Shown here: in pieces, positions 31,152 to 64,000 of the stretch
Layout: each line of letters opens with the position of its first letter
Position numbering within the stretch: the first letter of the stretch is position 1
NCBI GenBank assembly: GCA_949130485.1
Contig: OX422195.1
Coordinates: 2,465,566 to 2,529,565, forward strand
From: Agelas oroides
Taxonomy: Eukaryota; Porifera; Demospongiae; Agelasida; Agelasidae
Length of the DNA stretch: 64,000 nucleotides
Direction: 5' to 3'
Notes under the pieces: model-generated
Database searches by the model: none
The model's input: the letters and a program-made list of their open reading frames with translations, nothing else
Told to the model about the DNA's origin: nothing
Program-made: the position numbers and the translations under genes

Positions 31152-32811
31152 CTAGTTCACTCTCTCTCTAAGTACCATCAACCTGCTGATGTAGTCCTCT
31201 CTGTTTATGTACCCACCACACATCTTCCTCTGACCAGTGAAAGCTGTACGTCCATGTAAGACACGGTGGTTGTTGAATAATAACGCTCGGCCTGGCTCTA
31301 ATCGAAATCGATACTCAATAGCTTCGTCTTTCATAGTTTGTAAGAATGTTTGGAGAGCTTCGTACACCTTGAAAAGTGCTCGTGTATAGTCGGTCACTCC
31401 AAGACGTTGCATTGCTTTGATGGACGTGTTGTCAAAGGGCAGCCTATCTGTGTTGTTGAAATGCACACGACTGACCCTGTCTGTCTTAGGATCAATGATA
31501 AAAGCAATGTTGTAGTTGAGAAACTTGTGGTCCGTGTCGGTATGGTGGTATGGAATGGGAACAGAGGATAAGATGCGAAAATGTTCAGGGTTCCTCTTCT
31601 GTATCTCCTCTGCCAGTCTGAAGCCATCCACTAGCATGCTTTGCCCTCCTGTTCCTTGGAAGTGAAGGCAGTGAAACATCTGCAACCCTGGATAAATAAA
31701 CCAGTCTCATGATCAATGTCATAGGTATATACCTTTTGTGCATTTTCAACAGTTCAATAATAGACAATTAAGCCTCAGAGTTGATGTATATAGGTACCTG
31801 GTGCTTCTGAGAAGTAATTGCCATCAGTATGAGAGTCAAGATGGAAATTTGTATAAGCTGTATCACTGCATTGAAACAAGAGAGCACGAGTGTTGATGTG
31901 AACAATCATATTTTGGCTCACGATGCATGTTGCCAATAGTCGAAATACCAATTCTGTTGAGTTTATCTACTTACTGCCAGTGCTACCTTCACAGGGGGTT
32001 GCATACTCTTTATTGCAAGAGGAACACGATTTCTTCCATAACGAAAACTGGTCAGCTGCAGCATGATTAGACCCTCTTTCAGCAAAGATTACACACACAC
32101 ACACACATCTACACATATTTATGTAGCTAACCTGCCATCAAAACTAGGGGAAAAGACCCAGAATGCACCATAAAAGGTATTACGAATCACGCCAATTCTC
32201 TCCATTAGTTGCTTTGACAAGTCTGGCTCCAAGGGAGTTTGCTCAACAAAGCAGAAACCATACTTTTCAATCTTTTCCAGCCACTCCAAAACAGCTCGGT
32301 CAGTGTTCATCACTGCATCAAACTCAACACACGGTGGATTCAAAGCTACTTCATTACCCCACACAAGAGGCTCATCGTCTGCACCTCTCTCAGGTTCCAC
32401 TACCTCTCCATGTTCATAGCTGTTCTTCATCAACCATTTCATGGGATACACAGACTTGTGACCATCCTGCCATTGGATCTGCAGCCCACTGTCACTCAAG
32501 GATACCTCCTTGGGCTTCACGTCCAGAGGAAGCTGTAGTGTGTCCACAAGGCGCTGATTAGTTTGTGCGTGGAAACAGTGGGAGCAAAGACAGCTGTCTC
32601 TGAGCCATATGTGGTGATATCTGCTCCACGCAGTTCTGCATTGACCCTTCCAGTTAACGAGCACAGAGTTATCATCATGAGAACAAGTGGCGTCTTCATC
32701 GGACCTTGGCGTACTTGACAACCTTGCTACAGCACCAACACCACAGGGCAGCTTGAAGTGTCCTCTCGAGTGGGACACCAACGTACGAAGACGCGTGATT
32801 ATCGCAGCCAT
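31152..32811 (-). CDS. TMLHE: Trimethyllysine dioxygenase-like 2-oxoglutarate/Fe(II) oxygenase (mitochondrial)
   Basis: Three exons splice to 427 residues: 32132-32811, 31798-31865, 31152-31687. The N terminus is basic and Ser-rich (MAAIITRLRTLVSHSRGHF), consistent with a mitochondrial targeting peptide. WLRDSCLCSHCFHAQTNQR gives the N-terminal zinc-binding motif of the family. LMERIGVIRNTFYG and DTAYTNFHLDSHTDGNYF hold the iron ligands H-x-D. FHCLHFQGTGG, LVDGF and, near the end, NNHRVLHGRTAFTG supply the distal histidine and 2-oxoglutarate-binding region. The order and spacing fit trimethyllysine dioxygenase, the first step of carnitine synthesis, better than gamma-butyrobetaine dioxygenase (BBOX1). 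The paralogue remains the alternative. The gene converges with ARMC1. Its 5' part is duplicated at 44125-44260. Confidence 0.85.
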
Positions 32812-32966
32812 CCCGACAAATTATCCCATCCCAACAACACAAGCACAAGAGAGAGGACTGCAAGCCACACCCTTCAATTGCCAAAGGTGTGACTGCTAGT
32901 TTGATTCCCATGCATAAGCGGAGTAGTCTGGGATCCAAACCAGGAGAACCTTGTAATGGAACTAGC

Positions 32967-35467: not shown

Positions 35468-36319
35468 TCATTGGAAATTGTAGACTTCTCGATCATTCAG
35501 GCTCTGTAGGTTACGAAAATTGAAGGTTAGGAGTGTACCACTGTCATCGCTCTCAACCATCCTCAACTTGGCCAGGAACTCCTTGGGAATGTCAATGGTG
35601 TTTTTCAAAACAAACCACTGAACAGTCTCATTGCAAAGGGGAGTTGTGAGAGATCCTTCATACTGGTAGTAATCTCGATTTTCTGGGAGGAGATCAGTGT
35701 ACACAAGATCTGAGACAGGATGGGAGTCTTCGTGCTCAGTTGGAACAGGGCTAAGTTTAGCCCACACTCCACTTATTGGAATATCTGCAGCTTTACAAAG
35801 CACAGCAACTACGGAAAAGGTATCACCAGCAGTATCACTAGAAGAAGCACCTTGCTTGAGGTGGACAAAGTGAATCTCAGCAGCATACTGGTTGGCATCA
35901 ACTCGGTGCTCCGATCCTTCAGATGCACCTTTTCCCCAGTGGAAGTGAAACTGCTTGAGGATATACGTTCCCAGATGGTTAGTTAGGGTAGCTCCAGTCT
36001 GCCCGGGGACAAACTCAACATTGGTACCCATGTTCTTAAACTCTCCAGCCACTGGATGGTCATACTTATCAAACTTCAGAGCAATGAGGTCACTCCTCTT
36101 CTTTACTTCTTCAGTGTTGATGTTGATTGGAGATTGTCGCTTCCCATCACAATGTGATCCTGGGAATTTCAGCCATGCAGTTTGGTCATGGTAGTTGAAC
36201 TTGGCACTTTGAGCAGTCCTGTGAAGGCAATATAACACAGCACAATTAAAGCACACAACAAAGGAAACAACTTGGTGTTGTAAGACACTCTTAGTGTTGT
36301 AAGCATTGCCATTGTCCAC
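35468..36319 (-). CDS. Alpha-carbonic anhydrase
   Basis: A single open frame of 283 codons holds a full alpha-CA domain: RQSPININ, NVEF, QFHFHWG with GSEHRVD, AAEIHFVH, and GSLTTPLC. The three zinc histidines (HFH and the H of EIHFVH) and the gatekeeper threonine are present. The usual proton-shuttle histidine (NGHAFNVEF in human CA2) is missing: here the stretch is NMGTNVEF. The enzyme interconverts CO2 and bicarbonate. In sponges and corals such enzymes serve pH control and mineralisation; that role is inferred. The start at 36319 gives the N terminus MDNGNAYNTKSVLQHQ plus a hydrophobic stretch (VVSFVVCFNCAVLYCL), but a better-looking signal peptide lies in the overlapping frame (see findings). 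An upstream exon cannot be excluded. Confidence 0.85.
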   Translation of the reverse strand: MDNGNAYNTKSVLQHQVVSFVVCFNCAVLYCLHRTAQSAKFNYHDQTAWLKFPGSHCDGKRQSPININTEEVKKRSDLIALKFDKYDHPVAGEFKNMGTNVEFVPGQTGATLTNHLGTYILKQFHFHWGKGASEGSEHRVDANQYAAEIHFVHLKQGASSSDTAGDTFSVVAVLCKAADIPISGVWAKLSPVPTEHEDSHPVSDLVYTDLLPENRDYYQYEGSLTTPLCNETVQWFVLKNTIDIPKEFLAKLRMVESDDSGTLLTFNFRNLQSLNDREVYNFQ

Positions 36320-37283
36320 CCTAACTGAAACCGTATTGTAACCATATGCATTGTTCCCAAACCATGTAGCCAGCCATTGTTCTCAAATAAGAGACTTGGT
36401 GCTCTCACAACACTGAAAGTGAACCACAATGGAAGGGAGGAATAAATGTGTGCTGGGTTAACCCAAAATCATAAGATTTAAACACAAACATGTAGGGTCA
36501 CAAGTATGCACGCAAGCAAGGAAAGGATGATAGCTTGAAATTAAAGTTGAGCCCAATATGTATCCTACATCTTACACAGTGATATTTTACCAAATTGCCA
36601 GAAGTGCGTTTTGTGATAGGGCAATCAGAGCACAAATTGAGGAATTATGTCAGCCACAATGTGAATGCAAGTATATTTGAAAGGATTTTACAACCATACC
36701 ATTCACAAAAACATTTTCACAAACATATTTACATCTACATACATTTTTATATGACGTGGTATTTACATTCACAAGAACAGATTCATAGCATATTTAGCTA
36801 TGTTCTCAACAGCTTTCATACCAGCAACTTCCTATTTATGGATAGCAGTTGTGTTACTTATTAAATTCCAGCCATTCAACACAATGGAACGGCTTACTAT
36901 GCGACGGTGCCTTGGAGTTTGGAGATACAGTCTGCAGCTGTGTAAGAAGATGACGACCCACATACATTTGGCCCCCAATTGCTGCTGTATATCATATTGA
37001 TTGAGAGTATGACCCCTGTCTGGCTGTGCCATTCATTAAAGCTTTGAGACAACTGTTCTAACTCCTTTTGCTGGGAAGAGAGGATGTGTGTCATACACCA
37101 CACTGTATAATGAGTTTTCAATTCATCACCAAATAGCCTTACCCAGGCTGCAAAAAATGTGAAGAGATGGTGGCTTATTCTTGTCCCTTGGTCTTACCCT
37201 CTCACAACGAAATGACCGTGTTGCTTGGTGACATAGCCATCTGGTGTATAGAATGGCCAGAAGTTAGCAAGTTAGTAACACAC

Positions 37284-38861: not shown

Positions 38862-41800
38862 AGGGACAAAGACAGGAACAGAGGGACAGATACACTGGGA
38901 CAACAACAGAGGGACAGAGACAGGGACAGGGAAAGAAGGACAGGGACAAGGACAGAGGAACATGGAAAAGGAGAGAAGACAGGGACAGGGGAGCAGGGAA
39001 AGAAGGACAGGGACAGAAAGACAGGGATGGGGGACAGGGACAAAGGGACAAGGACAGGGACAGAAACAGAGGGACATGGATAAGGAGAGAAAGACAGGGA
39101 CAGGGGGACAGGGACAGGGACAGAGAGATAGGGACAGAGGAACAGGGAAAAGGAAAGGGACGGGGACAGAGGGACAGGGACAGAGGGACAGCGACAGGGA
39201 CAAAGGGACAGGGAAAAGGATAGGGACAGCGACAGAGGGACAGGGACGAAGGAACAGCGACAGGGACAAAGGGACAGGGACAGAAAGACAGGAACAAAAA
39301 CAGGGACAGAAGGAAAGAGAGACAGAGAAAGAGGGTAGGGACAGAGGGACAGGGACTGGGACAGGACAAAAACATGGACAGAAGGACTGTGGGACAGGGA
39401 CAGAGGGACCAGAACAGGGGAACAGGGACAGAGGGACAGAGACAGGGGGACAGGGACAGGGGAACAGGGACAGGAACAGGGACAGGAACAGGGACAGAGG
39501 GACAGGGACAGGGAGACATGTACAGAGAGACAAGGACAGAGGAACAGGGACAGGGACTGGGACAGGACAAAAACATGGACAGAGGGACAAGGAAAAAGAA
39601 CAGGGGAACAGGGACACAGGGACAGGGACAGAGGGACAGGGACAAAGTGACATGGACAGTGACAGGGACGGGGAGAGGAACAGAGGGGCAGGGACAGCGT
39701 GACAGGGACAGGGGGACATTGATAGAGGGACAGATGGACAGGGACAGGGGACATGGACAGATGGACAAGGACAGAGGAAAAGGCACAGAGGAACAGGGAC
39801 AGGGAAGGAGACAAGGACAGGGACAGATGGACAGGGACAGGGGACATGGACAGGGGACATGGACAGAGGGACAAGGACAGAGGGACAAGGACAGAGGAAA
39901 AGGCACAGAGGAACAGGGACAGATGGACAGGGACAGCGACAGGAACAAAAGGACAGGCAGAGGGACAGGGACAGGGAGACAAACAAGAACAGAAATACAG
40001 GGACAGACGGACAACAACAGGGACAAAGGGACAGGGACAGGAACAGAGAGACAGGACAGAGAGACAGGGACAGGGAGAGGAATGAAGACAGAAATAGAGG
40101 GACAGGGACAGGGAGAGGAACGAGGACAGAAATACAGGGACAGGGACAGGGACAGGGACAAGCAAAGGGACAAGAACAGAGGGAGAGGGAGAGAAGGATA
40201 GGGAGACGGACAGGGACAGGGACAGGGACAGGGACAAGGAAAGGGACAAGAACAGAGGGAGTGGGAGAGAAGGATAGGGACAGGGACAGAGGGACAGGGA
40301 CAAATTGACATGGACAGTGATAGGGACAGGGTGACAGGGACAGGGGGACATTGATAGAGGGACAGGGGCAGAGGAACAGGGACAGAGAAAGAAACAAGCA
40401 CAGGAACAGATGGACAGGGCCAGAGGGACAGCGACAAGGACAAAAGGACATGGACAGGGACGGAGGGACAGGACAGGGAGACAAACAAGGACAAAAATAC
40501 AGGGACGGGACAGGGAGACAAACAAGGACAGAAATACAGGGACAGGGACGGGACAGGGGACAAGAAAAGGGACAAGAACAGAGGGAGAGGGACAGATAGA
40601 TAGGTACAGGGACAGAGAAACAGGGACAGAGGGACAGGGAATGAGACAGGGACAGGGACAAAAACATGGACAGAAGGACAGATGGTAAGGGACAAAGGGT
40701 CAAGGACAGGGCAGATGGATAGGGACAGGGACAGAGAAACAGGGACAGAGGGACAGGGAATGAGACAGGGACAGGACAAAAACATGGACAGGAACAAAAA
40801 CAGGGACAGAAGGAAAGAGAGACAGAGAAAGAGGGTAGGGACAGAGGGACAGGAACTGGGACAGGACAAAAACATGGACAGAAGGACAGGAGAGGGACAG
40901 AAGGACAGGGACAGGGACAGGGCACCAAGACAGGGACAGGGACCGAGACAGGGACAGGACAGAGGGACAGGGAATAAGGTGGAGGAACAGGGACAGAGGG
41001 ACAAGGACAAAGGGACAGGGACAGAGTGATAAGGACAGGGACAGGGACAGAGGGACAAGGACAAAGGGACAGGGACAGAGTGATAAGGACAGGGACAGGG
41101 GCAGGGACAGGAACAGGGACAGAGGGATAAGGACATGTAGAGGGAGAAGAACAGGGACAGAAACAGGGACAGGAACAGGGATGGGGACAGGGAGAGGGAC
41201 AAGAACAGAGGGACAAGGACAGGGACAGTTATACAGAGGGACAGAGATAGAGAGACAGGGACTGGGACATGCAGGGACAGAGGGACAGGGCACCAGGGAA
41301 AGGGCCAGGGACAGCGACAGAGGGACAGGGACAGGGACAGGAACAGAGGGACAGGGACAGGTGGACAGGGACAGAGACAGAGACAAAAACAAAGACAGAA
41401 GGAAAGAGGGACAGAGAAAGAGGGCAGGGACAGGGACAGAGGGACAGAGGGACAGGGACAGGAGAGGAACGAGGACAGAGACAAGGACAGGGACGGGGAC
41501 AAGGAATACGACAAGAACAGAGGGACAGGCACAGAAGGATAGGGAGAGGGGCAGAAAGGTAGAGACAGGGACAGAAGGATAGGGAGAGGGGCAGAAGGAC
41601 AGGGGACAGGGACAGAAGGACAGGGACAGGGACAGAAGGATAGAGATAGGGACAGAAGGATAGGGACAGGGACTGAAGGATAGGGACAGGGACAGAGACA
41701 CAGGGACAAAAACATGGACAGAAGGACAGATGGAATAGAACAGAGGGACAGGGACAGGGGAACAGGGATCGGGACAGAGGGACAGGGACTGGCTGACAGG

Positions 41801-42255
41801 GACAGAGAGACAGGGACAGGGACTGGCTAGAGACAGGAACAGGGAAAGGGACAGGGACAAGGATAGAAAGACAGGAAAAGAAACAGAGAGACAAGGACAG
41901 CGACAGGGACAGGGGGACAGGGATAGAGAGACAGGGACTGGGACAGGGACAGAGAGAGGGACAGAGGAACAGGGACAGGGAAAGGGCTAGGGACAGCGAC
42001 AGAGGGACAGGGACAGGAGGTACAGGGACAGAGGCACAAGGACAGGGACAGAAGGAGAGAAACAGGGACAGAAACAGGGACAGAAACAGGGACAGAAACA
42101 GGGACAGAAACAGGGACAGAAACAGGGACAGAAACAGGGACAGAAACAGGGACAGAAACAGGGACAGAAACAGGGACAGAAACAGGGACAGAAACAGGAC
42201 AGAGAGACAGGGACAGGCTCAGAGACAGAGGGGCAGAGGGACAGGGACAGGGAGA
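38862..42255. repeat. About 3.4 kb of GGGACA-derived purine satellite
   Basis: The plus strand is built from GGGACA, GAGGGACA, AAGGACA and related units, with occasional larger blocks such as AAAAACATGGACAGAAGGACAG repeated at ~39370, 39570, 40660, 40780, 40870 and 41710. From about 42055 to 42200 there is a cleaner 12-bp array, AGAAACAGGGAC. Thymine is nearly absent on the plus strand, giving a near-continuous G/A-rich strand opposite a C/T strand. Long open frames across it (Ser/Leu/Cys/Pro on the minus strand) are composition artefacts. Confidence 0.97.
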
Positions 42256-45429: not shown

Positions 45430-46321
45430 AGGCCGTAGACAAGTGGGTGCTTGGGGGTGCTGAAGCACCCCCAAATTTGTATTTGAACAGTGGCGTAGGA
45501 ACCGTAGTGGCCGTAGCGGCTTTAAGTTAGCTCAAGCTAGCCTCGTTCTCTGGGAGCGAGGCTAAGGTCAAGCAGCCTCTTCGTTGCATCAGTCTCATAT
45601 GCAGTTGCTTGGCAGTGAGATGACCCGGTGTAGTGTGTCCGTTAGTGGATGTGGCGGTTAGTGGAGCGATATAAATTGAGCGTGGGCGTACGATTAGTCC
45701 GAAGGCCCCACTCATTTCCGGTTTGCGCTGCGTGCAATGCGCGGTCCAGTTGCGCCAACGTTGGCTGCACCGTGCTTCGGTATTCTTTTTTCTGTTGATT
45801 TGTGAAGTTTGTCTATACCTATATATGAAGTTGATGTACACTGTGTACTGGCTTAGTACTGCATTATCTTTGTCTTCTGAAAATCTTTTCCGGTGTGTCA
45901 TCTGGAAGTGCCTTTATCTGTTGCAAGAAATTACATGGCTAAATAAGAGCCTTGCACAAAGCAAAACGTGCAGCTTCCTTGTGACTACTTTTCTTTATAC
46001 ATTATGGCCACAATCCTTGGGAATCCCTTCTGCATGCAACTTGTGTACAGCTATAATTTCTTTTGCTGGTTGTCAAGAAATGTAATTGATATGCACATGA
46101 TGAACAGTGATACAATAAGTATAGAAAAACAGTGATATAGCAGATGACTGGTTTAAGTTTGTGGGGACATAATCATTACTATAAATCATCAGAATGATAG
46201 TGTCATATATTATTCATTCATGACTAGTACCTCAAATTTAATGGGCAATTTATGTATTTTGTTATTCATTACAGTCATGATTGCTAATTGATTGTATTCC
46301 TGCATGCATGCACATGCGTAA

Positions 46322-49300
46322 TCAAAGAGTCTTCTCGTCATACATAGCTTTTCCCATGTACCAGTCAATATTGTATGCTTCAACTATTACTGAGATCATG
46401 GCCTGCAAGTATAGAAAAGAATAGGCATAGTATGAAGAAGTGAAACACAGGCTGTAATTTCTAATGTACCTCAGGCCAGAGCACCATCTTAGCAACTCTG
46501 GAATGTGGATATGAGTGCCCACATTTGACATCTTCTGCAATTGCACAGAGATATAGAAAAACTTCATTTATCTGCATGGGAAGAGAGTGTCTGGATCACT
46601 CTAATACAAGGTAATGAGTCCGTGCTATAGAGCTTACAATGATTGAATTTGTAAGGGGCCATGGATTTTCTGGCAGGGATATCTCTTTAAGAGTTTTGCA
46701 GATGTTCAATGATGGCCCATAAGGACTTTTCATCGGTTGAGCTGCCAGTATTCTGAGTTGAATCTGTATTAGATTGTCAAGTTTAGTACAGAACACATGC
46801 ACACAATGACATGAACTTCAATACCTCAGCGTACTTTAAGGCTTTGTGTATCACAGCCCTTGGAATATCACCATCCCTACAGTAACAAGAATTCAATTGT
46901 GAGTGATGCTATAGACATTATTACTTGTTGCATACTTTTGTGGAGGTCCAAGACTTGAAGTGACTAGCTGCTGCATTGTGTGAATGTAGCATCTTTTTCG
47001 AGTTGTGAAGTGGAACAATTGCTCATCACTGGGAACTCTTTTGGCCTCCTCTGAAAACTCAGGTATTAGCATAGGTATATCTACAGATAATAAAGTGTAC
47101 AAATATGTCTGCAAATCAATGCATAATTATGTTGACGGAAGTTTTAGATTGTGAATAACCTTCCAATGAATGCCCTCCCTCATTGTCACTGCTTCCATTT
47201 GATTCAGAGGTATCAGTGTATGTATCCATGTCACAATCACCTCCTGTGGGTGCAAATCAGGATATCAAATTATTATTAATTGTAGATAACTTTTCTAAAA
47301 AGTCAATGTAGTAGTAATACCATTACTGTCCTGCATTTCTCCATCCTACAAAAAAGGCAGAGAGTACAGTCTAATTAAATGAAAATGGTAATTAGAAGTA
47401 ATAAATTAAAAATTATCTGCATATTTAGGCTTCTCCCCAGTTTTTGCATACTGGATGCAACAAAAGCTGGGGACAAGCTGTATAGGATGAGCCTAATGTT
47501 AATATTCAATTCAAAGTGTCTGCATTCCAACACAAGATGAGCTGATCAGGGTTGCATGTGAAAAAAGGAAACAATTATTATGTCCGTGAAATTCTACTAA
47601 TCTATGGCATATTAGGAAATTATAATGCTTTGGCTTAGCTTTGATGTTACAATCTACTTTCTTACTATGTCTTCATGTCACTATAAAGACTGTAAGGGTA
47701 GTGATGTATGTAGCAGGTCAGAACAACATGCTTTTATATTTGTGATAGCTATTGAGACTAAAACCATAGTCTTAACAGCAAGCATGCACTATGCCAAAAA
47801 CCAGAAATAGTTTTTGCTGCAAAGTGTTAACACTTATAACTGTTGTGCTTTCAATCACGTGAAACAATTTAACTCTATTATCAATTTGGTTGTGGCTATA
47901 CCTGAAATGTTTTGGTAAAAGTAATTGTCAGGTTTGTGGACAACTCTGCCTTCAGCTTCTCATATCCATTCTCTGCCTGAACCATTTCAGGCTTAGTGAC
48001 TGGGCTGTACAGAAGGAACATGAGCTGGTAGTGTATGTTGTACATAGTTAACTGCATGTCTGTATACCTCATTATTATCTCTTTCAGTAACCACTGTCTG
48101 ACATATGCCTGAGTTGGCTAAAGAGCAGTGAAATATTAGTATTGATGCAAAAGCGTCCCGAAAAGCTTATACAAAGTGTGTACCTCAAAAGCAATCTTTT
48201 CACCGTGAGTTATGCATGCTGCAAACTGTAGAGGAATACATAACTGCAAGTGTTGTTGAGATCTGCAACAGTATTACCTAATTACCTTGCAGATAAACAC
48301 TCCACAGTCATCACTATTCTGTTGCTGGGGTAGGCTCTAAAAATGTTTAAGAAGTGTAGCTTTAGACTGAAGGCATAGCCTTACAAATACGTATATACAC
48401 ACCAGCTTTGCTTGCATTCGCCAACTGCAAGGATTCTGTACGTAACCTTCTTCCTTGTAGATCAAGCATAGCACTTCCCTATAAGTATAAAATATAAGCC
48501 AAATCATATGGCATTTCACAATTAACATACTATACATATACGCACCCGATCATTGCCATAACATTGGTGTATGGACTTCTTGAAGAAGTCCGGTCACCCA
48601 TATAAGAGTCATATGAGTATATAGTTTTCCTTTCAATGTCATACACCTGTACACATTTACAAATGCATTTTTTGAAAATACAAAATATTAAGATCAAAGA
48701 ATTATATCCTACCAACAATATCCAGTGATATCCCAAGTTCACGGGAATCAGTAGCTTTCGAATGCTTGTGATATCCTGTGGAAGACAAGCAGGATACATG
48801 CTGGCACTCAGCAGGCAATGACATGCAGACCTACCACTCCTACTGAAATTCTTACAAGGATTTGAATTTGAGTGTTGTGAAGTTTTAAGCAATAATTATG
48901 AACTGACCTTGACGTATGCAGCTAATGTGTTTGAAGCTTTACCCCAACGCTTCCACCTTTGCACAGCCTCATAGAAGAAGGATGAGGTACAGACCACTTT
49001 CTTTGCAAAGGATCTCTTCACAAGTGAAAGCTATATATTTTGAAGTGTAAAATAACGTGATTAAGTTAACTGTAATGCCACTTTGAGCAATGGTCTACCT
49101 TCGCCACTCTGTCACATTCTTCTTGATTCAGAAGTTGTAAAAAGAAGTTGATAACCTGCAAGTTGATATTCCCTACTGTGAGCATACGAAATTGCTCTGT
49201 GCATGTATTTAGCTAGTTAAAATTTCACTTACTTTGTCATTTAGCCAGATTCCAGATGTAACCTTTCTGACATCATCTGTTGTCAAATCATACTCACCAT

Positions 49301-52120
49301 GGTTTGGTGGATGAAGTATCAGAACTACAATTAATAAAAAAAAAAAAGATGCATCATGTAATATTTAGGTGACATATTGAGACGACTACATACCCTTTTC
49401 GTTTGAATATGAAATAGCACTGTTGGAGGTTGAGTGTTCTATTTCAATAGGAGCATCTTTATTTCCTGCATGTTACATTAATGTGAAGTAAAATTTACCC
49501 TTGTAGAAAGTAGGTTGTACCACAAACACTGTCTTACCATTCTCATGGTGTGAATTGCATTCTGCTTTATCTGTATGTGAGTGAAATATGAATACTGGCT
49601 ACATAATTACTAAAACACATTTAAAAGGCAGATGCAATTACCTGCAGCATGCAACTGAATTTGCAGTGAGGTATGTGCCACATCATGCCTCTCCAGTATG
49701 AAGAGAGCAGCAGAAGTGGTACACTTACTGAATTCCTTTTTCAGTATTGTATACAAGTATAATGGTGACAAACTGACAGGTTCATTTCTTCTCGAGTCCA
49801 GCCACCACATTGAACCACAACTTTCAATTTGAAGACATGTATAGTGATAACTAACATGCTTTAAGAGCAGCATAGTTAGATTCTGCTCAGGTGTAACAAT
49901 ACTGTCACGCAGTATTTCTGGGGTTGAAATCAAGTAGTGTCCACTTCCATGAACTTGCATGAAATTTCGAATGCTTGGTGTTATATTGACTAGTTTGTCT
50001 CCTGCTTTAGCTACAGCAGCATCTAGCACATCAATTGAGTAGTCTCCCATTGTTGATCGCATGGATTGAACTGGCTCAGTTGGGCTCATGCCCATTTCTG
50101 TCCAATGTGAATGCCATAAATCATCGGCAATGTCATTTAAATCAGAGAAGAAAAATTGTTCTGTTTGGTACAAGTTGTTCAGGACACAAAGGCCACACAA
50201 GTTGCTGTCTGCTTGCTGCTGCAGGAATGGTTCTGCTGGTCTTTTTATGGCATTCAATAAAGGAGTATCGGTTGAACTTTGCAAAACAGAAGAAGCATAC
50301 CGGACATTCATGGAAAGGTTGTTCTTTTCCTGGCATGTTAGTATTTCCCAACTCTCTAAACACCTGGAACACTTTTCCACAAACACCTCCAATTGTGCAT
50401 CCGTTAGATGGGCAAGCACAGACTGTATTCTTCTTTTCGAAAGTGTCATTGGATAAAGAGATGCAGACTTTCTCTTGAATAGAACAGTTTGGTCAAATGG
50501 AGCTGTTCCACGAAGGACATGTGATCGAGAGTCCCTTTGTTTTACACTGGTAGCAATATGAGTACTACTGGTACTTGAGTATGCACATTTAGGTGCGTAT
50601 TTGGTACTCTGCTTCTTACATTTGCTTGTGACTTTTGGTTTTGGTTGTCCTTTCTTCCTTTTTGCAGAATAACCTCCAGTGGAAGTAGTTTTTGACCGCT
50701 TTCGAGATGCAGCTGTAAGCAGAGGACTAGAGAAGATTTGTGACAGACTCAAAGTATTGGTTTCAGACACTGTAGTAGCATTAATGTCTTCATGAATTAT
50801 GTACTGTGTCACTCCTGGACTACCTCCTTCAATTTTCTTGATAAAACCACATTTCATTCCAGCCTTTATGTACCACTCTTTGCAGCATGGGTGGTTGCAG
50901 GAACACATCCTACTTACACAGTCCATGCATGTGTGTGAAGGTGGAACATAATATGGTAGTGTCTTCTGGGATAGAGACTGCTTCAGGTTTAATTGAGTGT
51001 TACTTCTTGATGACTCCCATGCATGAATCCCTGAAAGATAGTACTGAAATTGCTGCTTATGCAAATAACCAAGAATGGCTGTGTGATACTTGCTACAGAT
51101 TTTTGAAAATTCCACATCTTCAGTAGTGACAGACAAGAAACCCAGATCACAGGAAAAGGAGAAGAGATCAATCATGGCTGAAGGATGGGGCAACTCACAA
51201 ACCTTCATGCCAATGGAGTCAAATGCAGCTTGCAGTAAGTCATCCCCTTCTGCAACTTGGTATAGGGGCTCAAGGCTAGGGGAGCTGTCTATCTGTGTAG
51301 GTGGATGCACTTGACATGAGGATTCGAGGCTGGGGGAGGTGACCACCTGTGCACATGAATGTACATGGCTTGAGGACTCAAGGTTTTCAAGGTGTGCCTG
51401 TAGATGTGCCTGGCCATGGCTTGGGGAAGAAAGTCCAGGGGAATTGTCCAAGTGTGCAATAGATAATGCTAAATGGTCAGTGGAGCTATCCTGTGACTGG
51501 CCATAAGCATTAGTGGTTACTACTGCTTTTGATGTAAGAGATTCTCGAAGGGTTACGGCAAAGTGTCTTATTCTTGATACAAAGTCCATTCTGTATTCAT
51601 CTTCATCTGCTACAGCATGTGAAGGAACACATCCATGCATTCCAACCATCATATTACTGTAGAGAACTGTAGAAGCTTCCTTGCCATTGGGAAGTTTGTA
51701 AGACACAGAGTAATAGTTAAATGGTAACACCTCACTCACAACACCTTCACAGTTTGGTAGAAGTACAAGACCATGCTGCTCAGGGTAGCGAAACAAAATC
51801 TTCTCACCTTTTGAAAATTTTCGTGTTTTTGTTTTCCTGATATAAGCAAGATAATTTTCATAAAACTTTGATTCCATATTTTCTCGAACTGTTAGGTAAT
51901 ATCTGAGTCTTGTCTGTGCTGTGTGATACAAGCTAGCCAGCATTTCATCTGCTAGCGTGTTTGTACAGAACAGCTGTGCATAAATGTTGGCTCCAGATTT
52001 ACACCTACTGAAGTAACAGATCAAAAATGGCACAAAGATGAGAGACATGGTACATTGAAAGGTAGTTCCTCCACTAACTACCACACTAGGTTGAAGAGTC
52101 CGGTGGTTATTAGAAACCAC
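46322..52120 (-). CDS. Transposon-encoded double cysteine protease: integrase-tail-like region + Josephin-like + ULP1/C48
   Basis: Twenty exons splice without a frame break to 1,318 residues: 49642-52120, 49538-49570, 49394-49465, 49233-49324, 49099-49155, 48908-49030, 48713-48775, 48546-48646, 48403-48478, 48286-48336, 48184-48225, 48068-48117, 47902-48004, 47321-47345, 47160-47243, 46936-47080, 46825-46876, 46638-46763, 46470-46571, 46322-46402. Residues ~45-155 (RKFSKGEKILFRYPE...GVVSEVL..YYSVSYKLPNG) resemble a Gypsy/Ginger integrase C-terminal GPY/F module. A Cys-rich patch sits near 395-430. Residues ~630-790 look like a Josephin domain: DSNLCGLCVLNNLYQTE (Cys ~642), SYHYTCLQ (His ~757), WWLDS (Asp ~774). 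The ULP1 domain is complete: SGIWLNDK-VINFFLQLL, SSFFYEAVQRW, IPVNLGYHWILL, YSYDSY, PQQQNSDDCGVFICK. A ~200-residue unassigned tail follows. The true 5' exons are unknown; the start at 52120 falls at the minisatellite edge. Confidence 0.82.
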
Positions 52121-53860
52121 TCCTAAGGTAACAGGAAGATGCTATGATCCATACTTAGACATGGTGTGCAGTTTTAGCATGAAAGCTGGTTCCTCCACTA
52201 ACTACCGCACTAGGTTGAAGAGTCCGGTGGTTATTAGAAACCACTCCTAATGTGACAGGAAGATGCTATGATCCATACTTAGACTTGGTGTGCAGTTTTA
52301 GCATGAAAGCTGGTTCCTCCACTAACTACCGCACTAGGTTGAAGAGTGTGGTGGTTAGTGAACACAACTCCTAAGGTTACTGGAAGATGCTATGATCCAT
52401 ACTTAGACATGGTGTGCAGTTTTAGCATGAAAGCTGGTTCCTCCACTAACTACCGCACTAGGTTGATGAGTCCGGTGGTTATTAGAAACCACTCCTAATG
52501 TGACAGGAAGATGCTAGGATCCATACTTAGACATGGTGTGCAGTTTTAGCATGAAAGCTGGTTCCTCCACTAACTACCGCACTAGGTTGATGAGTGCGGT
52601 GGTTATTAGAAACCACTCCTAATGTGACAGGAAGATGCTAGGATCCATACTTAGACAAAGTGTGCAGTTTTAGTATGAAAGCTGGTTCCTCCACTAACTA
52701 CCGCACTAGGTTGTTGAGTGTGGTGGTTATTAGAAACCACTCCTAATGTGACAGGAAGATGCTATGATCCATACTTAGACTTGGTGTGCAGTTTTAGCAT
52801 GAAAGCTGGTTCCTCCACTAACTACCGCACTAGGTTGAAGAGTGTGGTGGTTAGTGAACACAACTCCTAAGGTTACTGGAAGATGCTATGATCCATACTT
52901 AGACATGGTGTGCAGTTTTAGCATGAAAGCTGGTTCCTCCACTAACTACCGCACTAGGTTGATGAGTCCGGTGGTTATTAGAAACCACTCCTAATGTGAC
53001 AGGAAGATGCTAGGATCCATACTTAGACATGGTGTGCAGTTTTAGCATGAAAGCTGGTTCCTCCACTAACTACCGCACTAGGTTGATGAGTGCGGTGGTT
53101 ATTAGAAACCACTCCTAATGTGACAGGAAGATGCTAGGATCCATACTTAGACATGGTGTGCAGTTTTAGCATGAAAGCTGGTTCCTCCACTAACTACCGC
53201 ACTAGGTTGAAGAGTGTGGTGGTTAGTGAACACAACTCCTAAGGTTACTGGAAGATGCTATGATCCATACTTAGACATGGTGTGCAGTTTTAGCATGAAA
53301 GCTGGTTCCTCCACTAACTACCGCACTAGGTTGAAGAGTGTGGTGGTTAGTGAACACAACTCCTAAGGTTACTGGAAGATGCTATGATCCATACTTAGAC
53401 ATGGTGTGCAGTTTTAGTATGAAAGCTGGTTCCTCCACTAACTACCGCACTAGGTTGTTGAGTGTGGTGGTTATTAGAAACCACTACTAATGTGACAGGA
53501 AGATGCTATGATCCATACTTAGACTTGGTGTGCAGTTTTAGCATGAAAGCTGGTTCCTCCACTAACTACCACACTAGGTTGAAGAGTGTGGTGGTTAGTA
53601 GAAACCACTCCTAATGTGACAGGAAGATGCTAGAATCCATACTTAGACTTGGTGTGCAGTTTTAGCATGAAAGCTGGTTCCTCCACTAACTACCGCACTA
53701 GGTTGATGAGTGCAGTGGTTAGTGAACACCACTCCTAAAGTTACTGGAAGATGCTATGATCCATACTTAGACATGGTGTGCAGTTTTAGCATGAAAGCTG
53801 GTTCCTCCACTAACTACCGCACTAGGTTGATAAGTAGGATGGTTAGTGAAAGCACTTCTA
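52075..53860. repeat. Minisatellite, ~124-bp unit, about 14 copies
   Basis: The unit GATGCTATGATCCATACTTAG...GGTTCCTCCACTAACTACCGCAC recurs every 124 bp (52138, 52262, 52386 and onward) to about 53860. Two unit types alternate, ending GTTATTAGAAACCACTCC or GTTAGTGAACACAACTCC. Each unit contains CTCCACTAAC, the complement of GTTAGTGGAG, which also occurs in the 60-bp TIR of the surrounding element. The array abuts the 5' end of the protease frame. Confidence 0.96.
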
Positions 53861-53879
53861 CATTAGCAGGCATGCATAT

Positions 53880-54514
53880 TTGAGGATATATACGAAACAT
53901 GGCATCTGTACCTTGTGTAGTCTGTCTCGTGTTACTCTGAGAGAGGTCCAAGAGCAAAACCCTACCTCCTGGTGTCAGCCTGTCTGTTAGTGTGCATGCA
54001 GTGTGTTTCTTCTACAAGATATGATAAAATCATAAAATAAATGAAAAACCCACTGCATGACCATATTTATCTCCCTATCTAAAGTATCAGTATACATGTA
54101 TTGGTCTAGCATTCTTCCCAAAACTTCCTTTACTTTTATTATACTAGATCTATTATGTATATATTAGTCAGAAATTTGAGTATATACGGCAGTCATCTCT
54201 GTGTATATTCGTGCTGCTGCCTTATGAGCCAACTTAGGTACTGACTTAGGTAGGGACAAGGTGTAACAAAATTAATTCTGAGACAGAGTGCATAGTTCCA
54301 GCTCCTCCACTAATGAGTAATGCATCGACTCATTCGTAATGCTAGATAATTTGTGTAAACCACCCCAAAGACAACAGGGGGATAGTAAGGCACTTATGTG
54401 TATATGAATGCATTTTCCATGTATACACACAATTCTGAAAGTCAGAGATGATTTGCAACTCCACAGGATATTGACCTTGGCATCCCACTACACTTAACAA
54501 TACAGCTACTAAAT
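53880..54514. other. No supported gene
   Basis: AT-rich stretch between minisatellite and SINE pair, inside the Ginger-like element. No integrase-like frame on either strand. A degenerate piece of the minisatellite (CTCCTCCACTAATGAGTAATGC, core CTCCACTAA) is at ~54302. Confidence 0.55.
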
Positions 54515-54700
54515 AGAGATTTTAGATGTTTCGAGGTGAAATACAGGAAAGTGAAATGGCCGGAGTCACCGGGAAGGAGACTTGGTTTGTACAGCCAGTG
54601 CTCTGCCACTGAGCTACAACAACCGGACAACCACCATCCTTACAACTCTAGTATGTGTACTCTTCACTTTCCTCTACATTTCACCTCAAAACATCTAAAC
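54515..54700. mobile_element. Head-to-head SINE pair (third locus of the family)
   Basis: On the minus strand from ~54635: GTTGTAGCTCAGTGGCAGAG (A box) with a damaged B-box region (CTTCCCGGTGACTCCGG) and the tail CATTTCACTTTCCTGTATTT. On the plus strand at ~54656-54700 is the tail portion CTCTTCACTTTCCTCTACAT with CACCTCAAAACATCTAAA. Same family and inverted arrangement as at 3160-3430 and 42425-42795. Confidence 0.68.
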
Positions 54701-55119
54701 ACCATGCATCCTTACGTATTCGGAGCTGCGGCGAGTCGAAGCGCAGCAATGATAGCCTTGCACGTGGCTGAGTTTACGCTAACAGAGAAAATTATCGTAT
54801 GTCGCCCACGCACACATTTCGTATTATACGCACATAACGACAGGGGCTCGTTGCCGCCCACGCTCAATTTATATCGCTCCACTAACCGCCACGTCCACTA
54901 ACGGACACACTACACCCGGTACGAAGGTAATCAAGCGACGAAAGCTAGCTGGGCGGTCTCCTGGGAACGACGAAGTCAATATAATCTGTTTTCCACATTA
55001 ATTGAATATTGTACGGTCTGAGAACGAGGCCAGAATATTATGCACCGTTGTTTATTTCGCAGTCTAAAGGTGCACACTTTGAAAAAATTCGCGGCGAAAT
55101 TATTTCCCATTTTCTTTAG

Positions 55120-63400: not shown

Positions 63401-64000
63401 CGGCACTTGACTCTACTTGACTCTACTACACTCTACCATGGCTCTACTTGGCTCTACTTGGCTCTCCTACAATCTACCATGAATTTACTACATTCTACCA
63501 TGGCTGTACTTGACTCTACATGACTCTACTACATTCTACAATGGCTCTACTTGACTCTACTTGATTCTACTACACTCTACCATGGCTCTACTTGGCTCTA
63601 CTTGACCCTACTACACTCTACCATGGCTGTACTTGGCTCTGCGTGCTTGTACTACAGTTTAGCATGGATCTACTACATTCTCCCATGGCTCTCCTTGACT
63701 CTACATGACTCCACCATGGCTCTTACTACGTAGCTCTACTGGACTCTACTACATTCTACCATGGCTCAACTTGATTCTTCATGACTTTCCTACATTCTTT
63801 CATCACTCTACATGACTCTACTACACTCTACAATGGCTCTACTTGCTTCTACTTGACTCTATTATACTCTACAACTTAACGGCTCTACTTGAGCCATGAC
63901 TCTACTTGATTCTCTACTTGGTTCTACTATCCATTCTACCATGGATCTACTACACTCTACCATGGCTCTACTTGGCTCTACTTGGATCTAATACATTCTA
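63400..64000. repeat. CTCTACTTGA/CTCTACCATGG-type satellite, continuing past the window end
   Basis: The array is built of ~10-12-bp modules (GACTCTACTTG, GCTCTACTTG, ACTACACTCTACCATG) arranged in irregular 25-55-bp higher-order units from about 63405 to the last base. CCATGG recurs at nearly every higher-order unit. Confidence 0.93.

Follow-up and report, generated by a model that had tools for sequence, protein, structure and literature searches.

Protease-bearing transposons with a retroviral type of integrase include the Ginger1 elements. In the available excerpts of their description (Bao et al., 2010; PMC2836005), Ginger1 encodes a Gypsy-like DDE integrase with a YPYY motif, an H2C2 finger and a GPY/F module, has TGTNR ends and terminal inverted repeats (TIRs) of 40–270 bp, makes 4-bp CCGG/CCGT target site duplications, is 2.6–7 kb long with 0–4 introns, and carries as its C-terminal protease either OTU or ULP1, not both. 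The same excerpts describe Ginger2/Tdd as integrase-like DNA transposons with TGTNR ends, among which TDD-4 and TDD-5 produce 5-bp duplications, and state that Ginger2 has a preference for AT-rich RTATAY sites and possesses neither GPY/F nor YPYY. Two proteases within one transposon have been described in the Helentrons: according to the accessible portion of PMC9741609, OTU is present as well in 121 Helitrons with VTD, the activity of VTD has been demonstrated in vitro, SUMO probes gave no reaction with the zebrafish VTDs examined, and Josephin appears only as a class in a list. Here, we describe a window of 64,000 nucleotides from the sponge Agelas oroides (GCA_949130485.1, contig OX422195.1, positions 2,465,566 to 2,529,565; coordinates below are those of the window), which contains an integrase-type DNA transposon in the form of a young copy that has lost its integrase; its gene joins a Josephin domain to a ULP1 domain.

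The element occupies 45629–54914 (9,286 bp; contig C13 of the 259-Mb assembly), with TGTAG at its start and CTACA at its end. Its TIRs of ~60 bp, which are 97% identical over 66 bp, lie at 45629–45688 on the gene's 3' side (plus strand) and at 54855–54914 on the gene's 5' side (minus strand), and the target site duplication CCCGG is present at 45624–45628 and 54915–54919. An earlier model-made reading from the letters alone (the sequence-only reading) had reported 60-bp TIRs of the form TGT...ACA with CCCGG flanks, and these were recovered; of the span it had given, 46322–54914, the end stands, whereas 46322 is the end of the stop codon and not the start of the element. Between the TIRs, we re-derived a minus-strand gene model of 19 exons and 1,290 codons plus stop, which runs from a provisional 5' limit at 51973 to the stop at 46322 without an internal stop and comprises an SH3/GPY-like region, a Cys-rich region, the Josephin and ULP1 domains and a C-terminal domain. 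All 18 introns are GT-AG, 17 of them being 59–132 bp long and one 556 bp. The open frame of the first exon extends further upstream to 52141, with a single in-frame ATG there, at 52048. The 20 exons and 1,318 codons proposed before differ from our model at the 5' end; both the consistent splicing into one open frame and the union of the two proteases in a single gene model within a TIR-bounded transposon were confirmed.

The ULP1 domain lies in exons 4–12 (48061–49286, minus strand, introns included), and the spliced exons match Peptidase_C48 (PF02902) at 84.1 bits (E 1.6e-23; cut-off 20.7 bits). The complete catalytic set that had been claimed was found in the expected motifs, at codons 48727–48725 (His920 in the 19-exon model), 48610–48608 (Asp937), 48321–48319 (Gln989) and 48306–48304 (Cys994), all on the minus strand. 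In the PDB, SENP1 is the best match (E 2.6e-21), the nearest proteins are SENP1, SENP2 and SENP5, the NEDD8 protease SENP8 is far weaker (E 2e-4), and 20 of 20 sequences at E <= 0.01 are named SENP, ULP1, Ulp2 or Ulp1-like SUMO protease. SENPs cleave SUMO; Josephins, a small family with the members ataxin-3 and JOSD1/2, cleave ubiquitin. The Josephin domain of the window (49742–50224, minus strand) matches PF02099 at 47.5 bits when searched alone (E 2.2e-12) and at 44.6 bits within the 842-aa frame of the first exon, the cut-off being 26 bits. Cys593 (codon 50197–50195), His710 (49846–49844) and Asp726 (49798–49796) follow one another in the Josephin order, at the motifs pointed out by the sequence-only reading. 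In both domains the catalytic roles are assigned by reference to the family motifs, the oxyanion Gln of the Josephin domain being uncertain. The proposal that residues ~600–800 are Josephin-like also withstood a profile check: at E <= 0.01, PF02099 is the sole Pfam family matched by eight of eight aligned members (four of family A, to which the window copy belongs, three of family B and one of family C, see below), so that no non-protease family was matched. An NCBIfam search gave no match. Elsewhere in the genome, two Josephin profile matches stand 2.6 kb apart on one strand (C23:5886434–5889338; L061 and L064) and probably represent exons of a Josephin gene that belongs to the host itself.

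The integrase was found in other copies of the element. When the genome was searched with the first exon, at least 52 matches were obtained; as such searches scored the best candidates only (in one case the best 110 of 647), these counts are lower bounds. In two near-complete siblings, L039 (C23) and L041 (C1:8.46 Mb), an integrase lies in frame just upstream, and in L041, where the integrase region has 374 residues, an open frame of 1,026 codons leads from the integrase into the Josephin domain. The sibling integrase matches the retroviral/Gypsy-type profile PF00665 at 51.6 bits, has foamy virus integrase as its best PDB match (E 4.8e-20), and shows DD35E spacing as counted by hand. Compared with L039 and L041, the window copy is short of ~1.15 kb, a loss that took with it the finger and the DDE core as well as the candidate ATG seen in the siblings, and the deletion junction is at 51956/51957 (minus strand). 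Next to it, a degenerate, SH3/GPY-F-like C-terminal region of the integrase remains (51632–51955, minus strand), which adjoins the DDE integrase in frame in both siblings and has no Pfam match over cut-off in the window. The description of the locus as intact therefore holds for the two protease domains and fails for the element, from which the integrase has been deleted. Further downstream in the gene, a Cys-rich motif of the form H-x-C-x2-C...CC...C (50843–50935, minus strand) is conserved in families B and C, with 35–43% identity to L040, L045, L055 and L058 in tblastn pieces, and the C-terminal domain (exons 15–19 plus the last base of exon 14; 46325–47160, minus strand) is conserved in B and partly in C; neither the Cys-rich region nor this domain has a Pfam match. 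The order of the parts in the longer relatives is an altered H2C2-type finger, the DDE integrase, the SH3/GPY-like region, the Cys-rich region, Josephin, a SENP-type ULP1 and the C-terminal domain, and that these would form a single chain follows from the gene model.

The siblings differ from the window copy by ~1%, and the sibling on C1 keeps all of its splice sites, while in that on C23 two donors are affected, that of exon 3, which is not kept, and that of exon 12, where there is a deletion. Because the divergence is so small, the open frame of the window copy proves little and mainly shows its youth. We infer that this copy could still make the double protease, and that moving would need an integrase from another copy. 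An intact open frame and intact splice sites beside a missing integrase are also what would be expected if, once the transposase was lost, the host had domesticated the remainder as a protease gene. We regard such domestication as very unlikely, since the TIRs and the target duplication are intact, the copy is that close to its siblings, and no constraint was shown on it; moreover, a copy at C1:31.23 Mb likewise has the Josephin domain and both ends, with no integrase among the matches listed.

Evidence for selection comes from diverged families, not from the open frame in the window. Family B (L040, L044, L045) is 48–54% identical to family A in the integrase, depending on the piece, and 31.5–32.5% identical in the Josephin domain; family C (L058) has 43% and 35% identity in two integrase pieces and 28% in Josephin. 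Six modules occur in the same order in families A (siblings), B and C. In Josephin, families B and C both retain the Cys and the His, and B also the Asp, the frame of C being lost at that point; in ULP1, both retain the His, the Gln and the Cys, and B again the Asp, the corresponding exon of C having not been found. The intron places of the ULP1 part also correspond across the families, as judged from the alignments. Between B and C, the ratio of non-synonymous to synonymous substitution rates (dN/dS) of Josephin is 0.24–0.28 in three of three pairs, a rough estimate given dS of 2.0–2.4. Between A and B, the proportions of non-synonymous and synonymous differences (pN and pS) are 0.51–0.52 and 0.76–0.78 (saturated) for Josephin, and 0.34 and 0.80 for the integrase. 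Because diverged families keep the order and the readable catalytic residues, with a Josephin dN/dS of ~0.25, the pairing of Josephin and ULP1 is old and probably selected. Transposons do capture gene fragments, and the protease domains might accordingly be inert captured sequence; we give this hardly any credence, as order and readable catalytic residues have been kept across families whose synonymous sites are saturated.

In the mechanism that we propose, a deubiquitinase-type Josephin domain and a SUMO-protease-type ULP1 domain would be tethered to the transposase, and the pair would strip the DNA-bound transposition complex of ubiquitin and SUMO, acting either on the transposase itself or on adjacent proteins. 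Such double removal would undo both layers of SUMO-dependent ubiquitin control and so counter SUMO-targeted ubiquitin ligases. Because both domains are tethered to the transposase, removal of ubiquitin and SUMO at the transposition complex is the most likely role, and we consider it probable, with moderate confidence, that the element is an integrase-type transposon whose tethered Josephin and ULP1 strip the two modifiers from that complex. The same anatomy would fit proteases that act, once the element has been excised and integrated, on DNA-repair or chromatin factors of the host, and not on the transposase. The excerpts of PMC2836005 argue that ubiquitin and SUMO regulate repair and that the ULP1/OTU of Ginger1 may activate repair factors (Bao et al., 2010); nothing specific speaks against such targets, which sequence cannot separate from the transposition complex, and we rate them as rather unlikely.

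A further function to be weighed is cleavage of the element's own chain into mature proteins. Adenain-type relatives of ULP1 perform self-processing in viruses, the chain is long and modular, and a sub-threshold match to the vaccinia I7 peptidase was seen (PF03290, 13.4 bits; cut-off 24.5 bits). However, the four Gly-Gly pairs of the window protein have no counterpart in a 508-residue stretch of family B covering the Cys-rich and Josephin parts, which contains none, so that there is no conserved site there; all 20 of the PDB matches to the ULP1 domain belong to the SENP/ULP1 kind, and the Josephin domain would be left unexplained. Self-processing is accordingly held to be improbable.

Several observations weigh against a functional double eraser at the transposition complex. 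The Josephin domains of B (L040) and C score 24.0 and 23.0 bits, below the cut-off of PF02099, although in a second profile search the same L040 domain reached 26.2 bits and that of another B copy 29.8 bits. A PDB sequence search with the 777-residue Josephin exon gave no match at E <= 1, and one with an eight-row Josephin profile gave a single chance match (E 0.59). Comparison of the transposon Josephin profile with one host Josephin exon was not significant (probability 0.5%), despite which the LDS motif lined up. Among recent copies, constraint is not apparent: the Josephin domains of the window and C23 differ by no synonymous and six non-synonymous changes, and the young B copies give pairwise Josephin dN/dS values of 0.27, 0.54 and 0.82 (12–14 changes). 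In addition, the integrase of L039 is interrupted by an in-frame stop, with splice damage later in that copy, the frame of L041 is broken within Josephin, breaks also occur in those copies of B and C that were read, and a copy with all parts open was not seen among the subset of copies read.

The family has been mobile, and the search for other TIR-bounded copies that the sequence-only reading had proposed was productive. The terminal 272 bp have at least 22 matches in the genome, 13 of them longer (one per 3' end) and nine covering only the 60–61-bp TIR (opposite ends), and eight copies were checked at both ends. These eight span 7.0–11.9 kb by their end coordinates, and their target site duplications comprise six exact 5-bp duplications (CCGGG, CCACG, GCTTC, GCCTC, GCAGG and ACAAC, in gene or TIR orientation), one of 6 bp (ACGGTC) and one of 5 bp with a mismatch (CCCTC/CCCTG). 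CCGG occurs in one of the eight, that of the window, and ACGG likewise in one. One copy of family B has TGTG(TG) on both sides, which leaves the length of the duplication ambiguous. Two copies, L019 (C2:7.02 Mb) and L018 (C1:15.4 Mb), lack the Cys-rich domain and a portion of Josephin through one and the same internal deletion; a comparison over 3,291 bp showed them to be 100% identical, and their duplications differ (GCCTC and ACGGTC). The defective derivative has therefore moved recently, presumably by transposase supplied in trans.

Between the 5' end of the element and its first exon, the window copy contains a tandem array of a 124-bp unit (52056–53860, plus strand) in 14.6 copies, with TCCACTAAC once per unit; three siblings have 21.6, 26.6 and 25.6 copies. 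In the window, TCCACTAAC occurs 19 times (15 in the array, two in each TIR and none elsewhere) against 0.72 expected, the word having been picked after the TIR was seen. Repeats that contain TIR-like words of a similar kind are also present in family B, on its 3' side. The resemblance of the whole unit to the TIR is modest: the local alignment score between the TIR and the array unit was reached by seven of 1000 shuffles in family A and by seven of 1000 in family B, which is only suggestive of a derivation of the array from the TIR, for which the shared word is the stronger sign. The array may be a set of binding sites for the transposase.

With respect to classification, the sequence-only reading had called the element Ginger1-like; the ends, the TIR length and the ULP1 domain agree with this, and the target duplications and the YPYY motif do not. 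In the 374-aa family A integrase, the sole sequence tested for this motif, which in Ginger1 lies upstream of the finger, neither [YF]P[YF][YF] nor a form with one mismatch is present. The H2C2 finger of family A scores 18.0 bits against PF17921 (cut-off 25.5 bits), compared with 63.3 bits for an in-genome comparator (L066), and by eye its second His reads Cys and its Cys pair is C-x3-C. At the place of the GPY/F module, again by eye, family A has EGVVSEVLPFNYYSVSY and family B QGRVTEVLPCNYYRVSY, with no Pfam match over cut-off. An unrooted tree of 16 integrases of this genome, built with no reference Ginger1, grouped seven in a clade of their own, with a split support of 100, which excludes two integrase-ULP1(-PHD) elements and seven others that are mostly Gypsy-type, a label that was checked by a neighbouring polymerase-like open reading frame for L067 alone and given to the rest by similarity and long frames. 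Five of the seven clade members have Josephin in the locus; for the other two (L076 and L077), only the integrase stretch was fetched. Of the two integrase-ULP1(-PHD) elements, which are of the ULP1-PHD kind of Ginger1-9_HM, L066 (C1:12289500–12295499) matches C48 at 27.7 bits and PHD at 31.1 bits, both over cut-off, and L069 (C3:4441000–4443999) has PHD at 20.8 bits, below the cut-off of 24, and ULP1 by tblastn only (E 3.4e-4); neither has a Josephin match at E <= 1 within the fetched stretches.

The element could in principle be an ordinary Ginger1, with Josephin as an additional accessory protease next to the OTU and ULP1 already known. The TGTNR ends, the ~60-bp TIR and the C-terminal ULP1 are as in the excerpted Ginger1 description (PMC2836005), and integrase-ULP1(-PHD) elements are also present in the genome. 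Such membership nonetheless appears rather unlikely in view of the mostly 5-bp duplications without CCGG preference, the finger that falls under the cut-off when that of L066 clears it by far, the absence of YPYY in the one integrase tested and the separate integrase clade; in addition, the excerpts describe Ginger1 with OTU or Ulp1, not both, and here two proteases occur together in three families. From these comparisons, we call the element a putative new lineage of Ginger-like integrase-type DNA transposons and not Ginger1. A stronger proposal can be entertained tentatively, as possible and short of likely: that this would be a third integrase-type DNA transposon lineage, in which the transposase carries a two-step eraser, with Josephin acting on ubiquitin and SENP-type ULP1 on SUMO, that reverses SUMO-targeted ubiquitin marking of the chromatin-bound integration complex. 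Membership in the Gypsy long terminal repeat retrotransposons was also considered, and the ends speak against it, being inverted repeats and not direct long terminal repeats. No reverse transcriptase was recognised in open reading frames of at least 90 aa of L039, L040 and L041, for which no profile search was made. Among viral contigs, 166 pattern matches were obtained, none of which was confirmed as a relative.

Outside the element, the window contains, on the minus strand, an open frame matching gamma-butyrobetaine hydroxylase-like dioxygenase (31155–32820; PF02668, PF06155) and another matching carbonic anhydrase (35471–36382; PF00194, 204 bits). A repeat of ~3.4 kb of the AGGGAC/GACAGG type at 38871–42253 has extreme strand asymmetry, with a GC skew of 0.51 and an AT skew of 0.84 at 40001–42000, and a ACTTGACTCT-type tandem array lies at the end of the window (63405–64000).

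That three diverged families have kept a gene with integrase, ubiquitin-protease-type and SUMO-protease-type domains suggests a restraint of such transposons by both modifiers, and defined domains are now available for a biochemical test of this idea. An integrase-type transposon with a protease is of a known overall kind; the surprise is the choice of domain, a Josephin paired with ULP1. Full-text literature searches, partial in coverage and hence a weak negative, returned no report of a transposon-borne Josephin. Relative to the Josephin family (ataxin-3, JOSD1/2), the window domain is alike in its PF02099 match and in the order of Cys, His and Asp, and differs in residing in a mobile element with integrase and ULP1 and in being too distant for a PDB sequence match. 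Like Ginger1, the element has a Gypsy-like DDE integrase (in the siblings only, not in the window copy), TGTAG ends, a ~60-bp TIR and a C-terminal ULP1; unlike Ginger1, it has mostly 5-bp duplications without CCGG preference, a length of 7.0–11.9 kb, 18 introns (in the window copy) and Josephin in addition to ULP1. With Ginger2/Tdd (TDD-4, TDD-5), it shares the integrase-type DNA transposon plan, TGTNR ends and 5-bp duplications, whereas no protease is mentioned for Ginger2 in the excerpts of PMC2836005. As far as the accessible portion of PMC9741609 goes, the combination of two such proteases within a transposon has its closest parallel in the Helentron, which likewise combines two different cysteine protease domains, there the deubiquitinases VTD and OTU; Helentrons, however, are rolling-circle Rep/helicase elements, and the present element is of the integrase type.

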